The translations under genes were made by a program, and so were the position numbers. Positions 5,368 to 64,000 of a stretch of DNA of 64,000 nucleotides are shown piece by piece. Position 1 is the first letter of the stretch, and each line of letters opens with the position of its first letter. Source of the DNA: Bacillus sp. THAF10 (GTDB taxonomy: Bacteria; Bacillota; Bacilli; Bacillales; Bacillaceae_I); NCBI RefSeq assembly GCF_009363695.1, contig NZ_CP045403.1, positions 1,716,001-1,780,000 on the forward strand, in the 5' to 3' direction. The notes beneath the pieces were generated by a model. That model made no database searches and was not told where the DNA came from. It worked only from the letters and a program-made list of their open reading frames with translations.

Positions 5368-5598
5368 ATGACAAATTTAATCGAAACAATTGTGACGTCG
5401 TTAGTAGATCATCCAGAAAATGTGGTTGTTACGGAAAAAAATACAGGTAACTCTGTGACGTATCAGCTTACAGTGCATCAAGATGATTTAGGGAAAGTGA
5501 TTGGCAAGCAAGGGAGAATTGCTAAGGCAATCCGCACGGTTCTTTTCTCTGCAGCCGCACATGAAAATAAACGAGTACAATTAGAGATTATGGAGTAG
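5368..5598 (+). CDS. khpA: KH-domain RNA-binding protein KhpA (YlqC)
   Basis: 76 residues making up one KH domain. The RNA-binding GxxG loop is GKQG, within LGKVIGKQGRIAKAIRTVL. In Firmicutes KhpA pairs with KhpB (Jag/EloR), and the complex binds many RNAs and affects cell elongation and division. Its position straight after rpsP is conserved. Only eight bases separate it from rpsP. In B. subtilis the next gene is ylqD; here a hairpin and rimM follow instead. Confidence 0.93.
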   Translation: MTNLIETIVTSLVDHPENVVVTEKNTGNSVTYQLTVHQDDLGKVIGKQGRIAKAIRTVLFSAAAHENKRVQLEIME

Positions 5599-6964: not shown

Positions 6965-7002
6965 ATCATTTGTGACTTAGCTTAAGCTATGTCTAAAAAC
7001 GA

Positions 7003-7050
7003 TGTTCCGCTGCATCTTTATGAATGGAATGAGCATCTGTGGAAAAGGAG
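7003..7050 (+). ncRNA. Ribosomal protein L19 leader (5' UTR regulatory RNA)
   Basis: The segment TGTTCCGCTGCATC...GCATCTGTGG just before the rplS ribosome-binding site has the layout I recall for the L19 leader of Firmicutes (Rfam L19_leader): CCGC at the left pairs with GTGG at the right around an inner stem, and the element ends in the Shine-Dalgarno AAAAGGAG. Family knowledge suggests L19 autoregulation. The match is from memory, not from a covariance search. Confidence 0.65.
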
Positions 7051-59592: not shown

Positions 59593-62500
59593 TTGCTAGA
59601 AGAGATATCACAAGAAAAAATAGATAGATTTCGTCTTCTGCTTCAACAGCTTGAATTATCAAGTGATGATATTTTTCCTTATTTTTCAAATGGAGCAATA
59701 GAAAGGCTAACCGTTGAAAAAACAAACAAACGATGGCATTTTCATTTCATACTACAAAAGGTCTTACCTGTAAATGTCTATCACCTTTTTTATGAAAGGC
59801 TAACGAAAAGCTTTTCTCATATCGCAAATGTTTCTTTTAACATTACGGTTCAAGAAAGAACATTTGAAGAGTCTTCTATACGTGATTACTGGCCACTTTG
59901 TTTAAAGGAATTGGACGGCTGCTCGCCTCCTCTTTTAATGCTATTACAAGGTCAAACACCAACACTCCAAGGAAACAAGTTAATGTTGTCGGCGAGAAAC
60001 GAGGCAGAAGCGATTGCGCTTAAGAAGAAGCTAGCCCATACCATTGGCAGTACGTATGAAAGTTTTGGGTTTCCAGCCTTTCTTTTAGATACAAGCCTTT
60101 CGCAATCTGATGAAGAATATCAACAATTTGTTGAGCAAAAACAGCAAGAGGATAAACAAAAAGCACTTGCTGCCGTAACAGAAATGCAAAAGAAGGAATC
60201 CGCAAAAGATGACAACACGGTTAGTGGTCCTGTCATGATAGGTTATAACATCAAAGATGATGTGGAGATAAAAACATTAGACGAAATTGTCGAAGAAGAA
60301 CGAAGGGTTGCCGTTCAAGGGTATGTTTTTGATGCGGAAACCAAGGAACTTAGAAGTGGAAGAACGCTTTTAACCTTTAAAATTACAGACTATACCAACT
60401 CCATTATGGTAAAAATGTTTTCCCGTGACAAAGAAGATGTCCCGCTTTTACAGGCTGTAAAAAAAGGAATGTGGCTTAAGGTGAGGGGAAGTGTGCAAAA
60501 CGATACATTTGTACGTGATCTAGTCATGATGGCCAATGATATCAACGAATTTAAAGGGAAAGAAATCATTGATACCGCACCAGAGGACGAGAAAAGAGTC
60601 GAGCTGCACGTGCATTCTCCTATGAGTACGATGGATGGAATTAGCTCCATTTCCTCCTTGGTTGCTCAGGCAAAAAAATGGGGTCATAAAGCAATTGCCA
60701 TTACCGATCATGCAGTCGCACAAGGCTACCCTGAAGCGTATTCGGCAGGTAAGAAAAATGGAGTCAAAATCTTATATGGATTGGAAGCAAATTTAGTAGA
60801 TGATGGGGTTCCAATTGCCTATAATTCTGCACACCGCAACCTGGCTGAAGAAACGTATGTAGTGTTTGACGTAGAGACTACCGGTTTATCTGCCATGTAT
60901 GACACCATCATTGAGCTTGCCGCTGTTAAGATAAGGGGTGGGGAAATAATTGATCGTTTTGAATCATTTGCAAACCCTCATCATCCCCTTTCGGCAACAA
61001 CAATAAATTTAACTGGAATTACCGATGACATGGTAAGAGATGCTCCGGAAGTAGAAGATGTGCTAAGAGATTTCTCTCAATGGATGCAGGAGGATATTTT
61101 AGTAGCGCATAACGCTAGCTTTGATATGGGCTTTTTAAATATCGGTTTTCAACGAATCGGGTTAGGTAAAACTAAAAATCCGGTAATTGACACCCTTGAG
61201 CTAGGTAGACTTTTGTTTCCTGATTTAAAGAACCACCGCCTTAATACGTTGTGTAAAAAGTTTGATATAGAGCTAACTCAACACCATCGAGCCATTTACG
61301 ATGCAGAGGCAACAGGGTATTTGCTGGTGAAAATGTTAAAGGACGCACTAGAGAAAGGCATCGTTTACCATGATGAATTAAACGAGCACTCCGGTACAAC
61401 AGACGCCTTTAAAAGAGCAAGGCCATCCCATGTGACGCTTCTTGCTGTAAATGACATAGGCTTAAAAAATATCTATAAAATTGTATCCATCTCCCATATG
61501 AACTATTTTTATCGCGTGCCAAGAATCCCAAGATCACAGCTGCAAAAGTACAGAGAAGGAATTATTGTCGGTACAGCCTGTGATAAGGGAGAAGTGTTTG
61601 AGGGGATGATGCAAAAGGCACCTGACGAAGTAGAAGCAATTGCAGAATTCTATGACTATATTGAGGTGCAGCCACCAAGTAACTATGAGCACTTAATAGA
61701 ACTAGAGCTTGTCAGAGATCATAAAGCATTAAAAGAAATCATTTCAAACATTGTGAAACTAGGTGACAAACTAGAAAAACCAGTAGTAGCAACTGGAAAT
61801 GTTCACTATTTAAAAGAAGAAGATAAGATACACCGTGAAATATTGGTACGATCTCAATCGGGTGCCAATCCGTTAAACAGACATAAGCTTCCGGATGTAC
61901 ATTTCAGAACAACAGATGAGATGCTAGCACAATTTTCGTTTCTAGGAGAAGAAAAAGCGAAGGAAATTGTCGTTTTTAACACTCAAAAAGTAGCGAGCAT
62001 GATTGAGGAAATCAAGCCAATAAAAGATGATCTATACACACCAAAAATCGAAGGTGCCGATGATGAGATTCGTGATATGAGCTATTCTATGGCTAGAAGA
62101 ATTTACGGAGACAACTTGCCTGAGATTGTGGAAAAACGAATTGAAAAGGAACTAAAAAGTATTATCGGACATGGGTTTGCCGTTATTTATCTAATTTCTC
62201 ATAAGCTTGTTAAGAAATCTCTAGATGATGGCTATCTGGTAGGGTCTCGAGGGTCTGTTGGATCGTCTTTTGTTGCCACCATGACAGAGATTACGGAAGT
62301 AAACCCATTGCCTCCACATTATGTGTGTCCATCCTGCCAGCATTCGGAGTTTTTTGATGATGGTTCGGTAGGCTCAGGGTTCGATTTGCCTGATAAAGAT
62401 TGCCCTAAATGTGGCGAAGCGTTTAAAAAAGATGGCCACGATATCCCCTTTGAGACCTTCCTTGGCTTTAAAGGAGATAAGGTGCCGGATATTGATTTGA
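59593..62500 (+). CDS. polC: DNA polymerase III PolC, first exon, interrupted by a group II intron
   Basis: TTG start eight bases after AAAGGAG; 969 codons plus one base before the intron. Domains: N-terminal region (about 1-215), OB fold (about 225-315), first PHP part (from about 335), proofreading exonuclease ([21 protein letters not shown] near 424, [23 protein letters not shown]), second PHP part, and the zinc module CPSC..CPKC (about 912-945). The family is about 1,440 residues; here reading stops inside PDIDL-N, the motif with catalytic Asp966 and Asp968. Unspliced mRNA would end at a TAA at 62515-62517 after five foreign residues. The rest of polC must lie beyond the intron. Confidence 0.93.
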
Positions 62501-63193
62501 GTGCGACACGTTCTTAACTGAAAAGGTTAAGCACTAGCATTGTCTAGTAGAACTGCTATTCCAATGTGTGGAATGATGGGGTAACGTCCTGAAACACACA
62601 CACTAAAGCTACGGCAAGCGAATGCGATAATGCAAACATCAACATCGTTTGAAGCCCGTTAAAGTAGGCTGAAGTTCACCCTAACATTTTAGGATGAGGA
62701 AAGGGAGATATTAATCTTCTGTGAATGATAGGTCTGGTGTCTATAAAATTCCTATGGTTAGAATCAGTAAAATCACTGGGACGAACCCTCGATTGACTTT
62801 TCGTGAATGTCACGCAGCAGAAATGTTGTGGGGTCCTAAGAGGACTTCTGAGTGTGGATGAGTAAGCGTTTGGTTATGAAAATCCATCCTGTGTTACAGG
62901 CACAGGCAAGCTCAGCGGAATTTAGGGGGAACCTAAGGGAATAAAATAAAGATAGGAATAGTGGAACGTGTGAAGCTCCTGACGTAAGAGAAGGTTGCAC
63001 TTCTATGACAATGGTGTATGGAAAGGCGTATAGCTATAACATACTTTACAGGAGTGGCAGTAGTGCCGTAGTACTGTTGAAGAAATGCTGATGATGACTG
63101 AATAACAAATAGGTCGGAGGATAAAACATTTCAGAGGGAAGGGCACAAGTCGTTAACGTCGAAACAAAAACCTACAAAAAGTCAGATTCGCGT

Positions 63194-63247
63194 ATGACTA
63201 AAGAAAAACGAAAGCTTCATAAGGAAGTGATTAGTTGGCTGACTTAA
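63194..63247 (+). CDS. Possible 17-codon upstream ORF in the intron
   Basis: ATG at 63194 opens MTKEKRKLHKEVISWLT and stops at TAA 63245-63247, whose last base is the A of the in-frame maturase ATG (TAATG). No good ribosome-binding site precedes it. It may couple translation to the maturase gene, or be chance. Confidence 0.3.
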   Translation: MTKEKRKLHKEVISWLT

Positions 63248-64000
63248 TGATTCAAAAGCTAAGAAACAACGAATATTTTGGCTTACAATCAACTTTTGAT
63301 AATCTTTATGAGGAAAGCAAAAAGGGTCGATATTTTAAAAACATTTTTCAGCTTATTATTTCTGAAGAGAACATTCAATTAGCCTTTCGAAACATAAAAA
63401 GTAATATTGGGAGCAAAACGAAAGGTACGAACGGTCACACAATAAAACATCTTAATAAAATAGATGCTCTCAAGCTGATTGGATTAACAAAAAAGAGACT
63501 GGATAACTATAATCCACATGCAGTAAGGCGTGTGCTAATACCAAAGCCTAACGGAACAATGAGACCTTTAGGAATTCCAACAATTGAGGACAGATTAATA
63601 CAACAAATGTTTTTACAGGTTCTTGAGCCGATTGTTGAAGGTAAGTTTCATTCGCAGAGCTATGGTTTTAGACCAAAAAGAAGCACTCATGATGCTTTAG
63701 CAAGGTGCTATCATATGGTCAATCACAGTCATCAACATTTTGTGGTGGATATAGATATTAAAGGTTTCTTCGATAATGTCAATCATAAAAAGCTAATGAG
63801 GCAACTATGGACAATAGGAATACGGGACAAAAAAGTTTTATCTATCATCAAAATGATGCTAAAGGCAGAAATAAAGGGTAAAGGTATACCTGTTAAAGGA
63901 ACTCCTCAAGGCGGCATATTATCCCCATTACTAGCCAATGTGGTGTTAAACGAACTTGACTGGTGGATTTCAAATCAATGGGAAACAAAGCCAACAAGAG
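63235..64000 (+). CDS. ltrA: Group II intron-encoded reverse transcriptase/maturase (partial, 3' end outside window)
   Basis: At least 255 codons, still open at the window end. RT blocks seen: RRVLIPKPNGTMRPLGIPTIEDRLIQQMFLQVLEPIVEGKF, QSYGFRPKRSTHDAL, FVVDIDIKGFFDNVNHKKLMRQLW (first catalytic aspartates), and GTPQGGILSPLLANVVLNELD. The YADD box, maturase and any endonuclease domain are outside. It resembles Bacillus class B intron proteins. Start TTG 63235 is seven bases from AAGGAAG; ATG 63247 in the same frame is an alternative. Role: assists splicing and retrohoming of the intron. Confidence 0.9.
   Translation, partial: MADLMIQKLRNNEYFGLQSTFDNLYEESKKGRYFKNIFQLIISEENIQLAFRNIKSNIGSKTKGTNGHTIKHLNKIDALKLIGLTKKRLDNYNPHAVRRVLIPKPNGTMRPLGIPTIEDRLIQQMFLQVLEPIVEGKFHSQSYGFRPKRSTHDALARCYHMVNHSHQHFVVDIDIKGFFDNVNHKKLMRQLWTIGIRDKKVLSIIKMMLKAEIKGKGIPVKGTPQGGILSPLLANVVLNELDWWISNQWETKPTR

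Follow-up and report, generated by a model that had tools for sequence, protein, structure and literature searches.

The only polC gene of Bacillus sp. THAF10 is split by a complete and probably mobile group II intron

The polC gene of Bacillus sp. THAF10 is broken directly behind the codons for PDIDL. This raises the question of whether a group II intron resides in the only replicative polymerase gene of a bacterium and how the cell would live with it. The window, a stretch of 64,000 nucleotides (G000:C1:1716001-1780000), was analysed together with sequence fetched downstream of it (L006). It belongs to a genome assembled as a single 4.09-Mb contig with 99.95% completeness.

Structure of the intron and of the polC exons

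The 5' exon of polC (59593..62500, plus strand) extends from a TTG start to PDIDL and the first base of an Asn codon (969 aa and 1 nt). It matched the NCBIfam model PRK00448 (PolC-type DNA polymerase III) with 1294.7 bits at profile positions 5-976 of 1445. A sequence-only reading had described PolC homology as unbroken to PDIDL, and indeed the exon ends ...GATTTGA at 62500, with GTGCGACAC as the first intron letters from 62501. The 3' exon, located past the window end, matched the same model at positions 978-1444. It starts with ATTTTT, in frame and of the predicted form AT-TTY, and runs to a stop at L006:8575. At the exon junction A|AT gives Asn, followed by Phe; the intron interrupts this Asn codon, which follows PDIDL, after its first base. 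The joined exons encode 1,437 aa without internal stops and read PDIDLNFSGEY. The insertion site adjoins what we take to be the catalytic aspartates of PolC.

Only one full PolC is encoded in the single-contig genome, the remaining matches being partial (26-37% identity); the intact second polC that the sequence-only reading had considered was not found in it. PolC is essential in Bacillus subtilis. Given this essentiality and the single copy, a cell unable to splice should not live, and the intron must very probably splice itself out for the cell to replicate.

The intron proposed from the window turned out to be complete, with exons that join in frame. It covers 2,668 nt on the plus strand, from 62501 to 64000 and a further 1,168 nt past the window to genome position C1:1781168. 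Its boundaries are GTGCG..TAT, and the 3' end (..CACTAT) carries the expected AY. The 5' ribozyme core matched RF02004 (group-II-D1D4-5) at 62548..62747 (plus strand, 153.1 bits, E 4.2e-34), and domains 5/6 matched RF00029 at L006:7084-7169 (52.1 bits, gathering score 40), both above the Rfam gathering scores. Domain 5 was thus present as anticipated, with the difference that its catalytic triad, read from the RF00029 alignment, is CGC and not AGC. In the drawn D5/D6 structure, domain 6 contains an unpaired A 8 nt from the intron 3' end. IBS1 (GATTTGA, 62494..62500, plus strand), the 7-nt end of the 5' exon, pairs at 6/7 positions, many of them G-U, with EBS1 (TTTGGTT, 62869..62875, plus strand, intron positions 369-375), which is placed immediately 5' of ATGAA.

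A complete RT/maturase ORF of 608 aa with a TTG start is encoded on the same strand (63235..64000, end at L006:7062 past the window). The 734 nt between intron start and ORF correspond to the approximately 730 non-coding bases noticed before. The protein matched the group II RT model TIGR04416 with 356.9 bits (cut-off 300) and RVT_1 with 144.6 bits, and has YADD at residue 281. An HNH match at residues 525-570 reached 20.7 bits, just below the cut-off of 21.4 (E 4.7e-4). An intact RT/maturase, YADD and an endonuclease domain, as used to recognize a mobile intron, were accordingly all found, the last with a score just under its cut-off. The best solved-structure match by sequence was 6me0, which represents the cyanobacterial T.el4h intron. 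THAF10 carries this maturase gene once; a single further RT match, of 39% identity, was obtained in its genome.

Distribution and horizontal spread at the polC site

Among THAF10 and 60 relatives, the 3' half of PolC lies in a frame of 1,435-1,487 aa in 58 of 61 genomes and in a frame of ~490 aa in THAF10, G046 and G038. The polC frame is open in all 15 congeners, and an empty site was seen in all nine of these whose stretch was examined. The pattern of an interrupted site occurred in 8 of 397 sampled genomes of the own order and in 22 of 261 genomes of a second family. One candidate carrier of this family (G842) was dropped, as polC was absent at the pattern match, which left 21/261 and reduced the carriers from 30 to 29. 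From the contig pattern scan, 32 of 47 stretches were discarded as not being polC by tblastn, and 15 encode polC. In a class-wide sample the interrupted site was detected in 1 of 299 genomes, THAF10 itself, with no further carriers.

With the 5' 734 nt of the intron as query, 29 long matches (at least 72% identity over at least 644 nt) were obtained, all of them in polC (21/261 and 8/397 genomes). The same intron clade occupies the same polC nucleotide in 29 species-level genomes. Carriers in 15 named loci comprise Priestia abyssalis, Domibacillus antri, three Kurthia, two Caryophanon, five Lysinibacillus, two Metasolibacillus and Metalysinibacillus jejuensis. No second polC was found in the 28 other carriers (26 genomes searched at E up to 1e-50; G038 and G046 separately). 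The polC intron of THAF10 is one member of a recurrent, site-specific family and no isolated oddity.

Introns and host genes were compared pairwise. G195 and G228 share 97.6% identity in the introns and 67.5% in the polC exons, G346 and G866 share 97.0% and 69.2%, and THAF10 and Priestia abyssalis 89.8% and 72.6%, respectively. For the latter pair, RT dS was 0.65 while polC dS was saturated. Within one genus, the exons of G308 and G346 are 82.2% identical and the introns only 75.5%; exons closer than introns point to separate acquisition. The disagreement between intron tree and host tree indicates horizontal spread. Still, intron and exon distances correlate overall (Spearman 0.52, 406 pairs), and one Lysinibacillus subclade is held together in both trees. 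In nine selected pairs of intact copies, RT dN/dS ranged from 0.034 to 0.082. We propose that this polC-specific intron clade homes into the conserved PDIDL motif and spreads horizontally in this way.

No recent vector of the intron was found across plasmid, phage and viral-contig searches. For the RT, the best of the matches listed in plasmids (at least 5,000 records) had 48.5% identity and all those listed were below 60%; in phages (82 records) the best among the matches listed had 43.2%, all being below 60%, and there was no match in viral contigs. The 5' part of the intron gave only partial matches of 60-80% in plasmids (23 records).

Exon recognition and related introns in other genes

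Weaker matches of the intron search led to 37 related introns outside polC whose 5' end could be recognised. They constitute a non-exhaustive selection from 39 loci outside the THAF10 genome (L125-L143, L145-L164), two of which (L131 and L133) are without a 5' end. By their translated flanks, 12 are located in pcrA (HVDEYQD|T or a close variant), 6 in addA (DEYQD|), 14 in recJ (GDYD.|) and 2 in radC (HNH|PSGDP); the remaining three lie in a VirD4-like conjugation gene (1) and in small unidentified ORFs (2). One example each of pcrA, addA, recJ, radC and the VirD4-like gene was confirmed by NCBIfam. The insertions in pcrA, addA, recJ and radC fall at catalytic motifs, and several of these introns have no maturase ORF.

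EBS1 was assigned as the 7 nt before the conserved ATGAA. In 59 introns it pairs with the last 7 nt of the own 5' exon at 359 of 413 positions (mean 273 and maximum 302 in 2,000 shuffles), with the register chosen on the same sequences and 7 of 66 introns dropped because the loop was not parsed. The weakest own pairings were 5/7 in two polC introns and 4/7 in one recJ intron. Some cross-target pairings equal the own ones: EBS1 of the pcrA and addA introns pairs at 7/7 with the target of L154, and EBS1 of L147 pairs with polC targets at 5.7 positions on average. The pcrA and addA introns share their EBS1, since both are inserted at DEYQD. In 28 of 29 polC introns EBS1 has a G opposite both degenerate pyrimidines of GAY-YTN, L109 differing at one of them, so that synonymous target variants would be tolerated. 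A candidate EBS2 was weak.

The related intron in the VirD4-like conjugation gene (L154, G311:C23:119100-125100) is a possible mobile reservoir.

Further introns were observed in the THAF10 genome and in related genomes. In THAF10 a second, distant group II intron interrupts radC on the minus strand (L144, G000:C1:2860000-2868000), after NASIVHPREI and before FKEAFRRSAAS; its RT is 39% identical to that of the polC intron, and RF00029 matched with 59.6 bits. Two group II introns reside in addA of G693 (L129, ending at 5495) and G721 (L137), both on the minus strand, at DEYQD| and GDVKQSI|YRFR. The second addA introns matched RF00029 with 64.7 (G693) and 62.6 bits (G721) and begin with GTGCGCCCATAAGG, like the radC intron of THAF10. 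In polC of G228, a break of the frame was initially considered an assembly error. This was rejected, as the break corresponds to a second group II intron (L100 300-1379, minus strand, 1,080 nt) at MFPK|AHAAAY, with 55 bits to RF00029, a restored frame and a 76-aa open frame of unknown kind. The polC gene of G228 is thus predicted to be a three-exon bacterial polC.

Predicted splicing and loss of the maturase

All 29 polC introns start with GTGYG and end with AT, L112 (G711) only after its end was moved one base later. The PolC frame is restored across the GUGYG..AY boundaries in 28 of 29 copies as computed, and in L112 with the shifted end. In the 5' 680 nt of the 29 introns, the consensus structure contains 175 pairs, 70 of which show compensatory change. 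In the D5/D6 alignment 94.3% of the cells are paired, and covariation was 0.187 compared to 0.104 in shuffled alignments (reached in 0 of 500). Changes on both sides were seen in 6 D5/D6 pairs, an unremarkable number given a shuffled value of 4.5 and 63 of 500 shuffles reaching it. In the drawn structure, two pairs in upper D5 are for the most part unpaired. The in-frame junction and the conserved ribozyme indicate that the intron of THAF10 is almost certainly spliced. Separately, L112 has a polC frame break ~78 codons past the 3' splice site as well as a broken RT frame; assembly errors are suspected there.

Considering the computed anatomy, reading frame, copy number and ribozyme conservation, we hold with high confidence that a complete group II intron of a polC-specific clade, probably mobile and, we infer, spliced, splits the sole polC of THAF10. 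In the proposed mechanism, EBS1 would pair with IBS1 at the end of the 5' exon, the bulged A in domain 6 would drive splicing and the PolC reading frame would be rejoined, probably with assistance of the own maturase. Imprecise loss of an intron from an essential gene should be lethal. Selection would consequently keep the ribozyme, while the maturase ORF would be free to decay or to be deleted. In some species lacking the maturase, splicing would then depend on host factors or the maturase of another intron, or the RNA would splice unaided.

In line with such decay, the 29 polC introns comprise 13 with an open RT frame (607-608 aa), 5 of full length with a broken frame and 11 in which the ORF is mostly lost. 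These 11 are 767-1,674 nt long, and all of them retain matches to RF02004 (143-154 bits) and RF00029 (47-51 bits). Close sisters differ in this respect: G812 contains the maturase ORF, G806 and G816 do not, and PolC identity over the compared part is 99.6% between G806 and G812 and 99.8% between G806 and G816. When the 16 carriers whose maturase ORF is deleted or broken were searched for the RT at E 1e-15, no match was obtained in G679, which was matched to Caryophanon tenue, a species with an 847-nt intron, and only the remnant in the own intron in G046. Neither genome had a match to the group II RT model or to RVT_1, although the RVT_1 search did detect the THAF10 genome; as both are drafts of ~40 and ~70 contigs, respectively, an RT gene may have been missed. 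In G702 and G816 the RTs outside polC are all more distant. The other carriers of ORF-deleted introns encode RTs of ~43-47% identity elsewhere in the genome, which might act in trans. Whether polC mRNA in G679 and G046 is spliced without any intron-encoded maturase, as a bacterial counterpart of the step from a mobile to a host-dependent intron, we consider evenly balanced. If so, a protein-free resident group II intron would sit in the only replicative polymerase gene of some bacteria.

Other readings of the locus have to be weighed against a spliced intron. As computed assemblies are the sole data, an assembly or contamination artefact could be suspected; given a single 4.09-Mb contig and the identical junction in 29 species-level genomes, we regard this as exceedingly improbable. 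The intron could also be dead, with PolC made as two reassembling polypeptides, since without splicing the frame encodes 974 aa and a GTG-start ORF at L006:7124 covers the 3' half. However, the break would lie directly behind the PDID motif and the GTG inside domains 5/6. Moreover, the compensatory changes, the ribozyme retained in 11/11 ORF-deleted copies and the frame restored at the exact boundaries (28/29, and L112 after the one-base shift) all argue for splicing, making a split PolC very unlikely. A domesticated intron, with a PolC level determined by splicing that is slow or responds to Mg2+, growth rate or temperature, would explain retention without maturase by a benefit and not by an inability to lose the intron. 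It is consistent with the persistence of ORF-deleted copies with intact ribozyme domains, and PMC6003770 speculates that introns of essential genes may be regulatory. On the other hand, the uninterrupted polC frame in 15/15 congeners makes the intron dispensable there, and horizontal spread suffices to explain its presence. Domestication is therefore rather improbable, and a spliced intron held in place by the essential gene remains our preferred reading.

Known systems share single features with the polC introns. Chee and Takami reportedly described in 2005 a group II intron in recA of Geobacillus kaustophilus, a case cited in PMC4424553 and PMC3522654; Geobacillus belongs to the same broad group, the Bacillales. 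This is likewise a DNA-metabolism housekeeping gene, whereas the polC intron occupies a different gene, where the very same site is interrupted in 29 species-level genomes, 11 of them with the ORF deleted. In the cyanobacterium Trichodesmium, dnaN and ribonucleotide-reductase genes contain group II introns and one maturase serves several of them. Here, too, replication genes are interrupted and ORF-less copies may be served in trans by a maturase; in contrast to this cyanobacterial case, two draft genomes with a polC intron have no detectable reverse transcriptase. Inteins and homing endonucleases occupy active-site motifs of replication proteins. The likeness lies in the choice of the most conserved codons of replication and repair enzymes and in the tolerance of synonymous target variation, but the polC intron would be removed as RNA, not as protein, and recognize its target by RNA pairing.

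PMC4424553 (2015) states that ORF-less introns are uncommon in bacteria and that a related maturase almost always accompanies them, the sole known exception being C.te.I1 of Clostridium tetani, which is ORF-less in a genome without related maturase. C.te.I1 has a shifted 5' splice site and four 3' splice sites (PMC4424553) and is located in a surface-layer protein gene according to PMC3919590. Unlike C.te.I1, the polC introns keep standard boundaries; they interrupt a replicase gene present in one copy, and some of their sister introns carry the maturase. Group II introns of plant and fungal organelles also lost the protein and were retained in needed genes (PMC4424553); the polC introns differ in being bacterial and in the evidence of horizontal spread.

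A report of a group II intron in polC was not found among open-licence PMC papers. PMC3522654 describes group II introns as virtually absent from housekeeping genes and names recA of G. kaustophilus, and PMC6003770 explains the scarcity of such introns in essential genes by lowered host expression, offers mRNA targeting as the reason and notes rare cases. The view of the sequence-only reading that housekeeping cases are few agrees with these papers and with PMC4424553, yet the polC case itself is a recurrent family. In contrast to the explanation in PMC6003770, by which essential bacterial genes remain free of group II introns, the polC introns recur at one replicase codon. While the kind of element, a group II intron, is known, the repeated residence in an active-site codon of the replicase and the repeated loss of the maturase are new. 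As close sisters exist with and without the maturase ORF, the shift from a selfish mobile to a host-dependent intron, a step proposed towards spliceosomal introns, is directly testable in bacteria. Moreover, an essential gene would be available in a natural series of alleles that depend on splicing.

Other structured RNAs were observed besides the introns. Bacillaceae-1 RNA (RF01690) matched in four polC loci, namely L108 4432-4502 (inside the intron), L113 6349-6415, L118 6021-6086 and L120 5880-5943. In the window, an L19 leader (RF00556) was detected at 6999-7039 with 37.4 bits.
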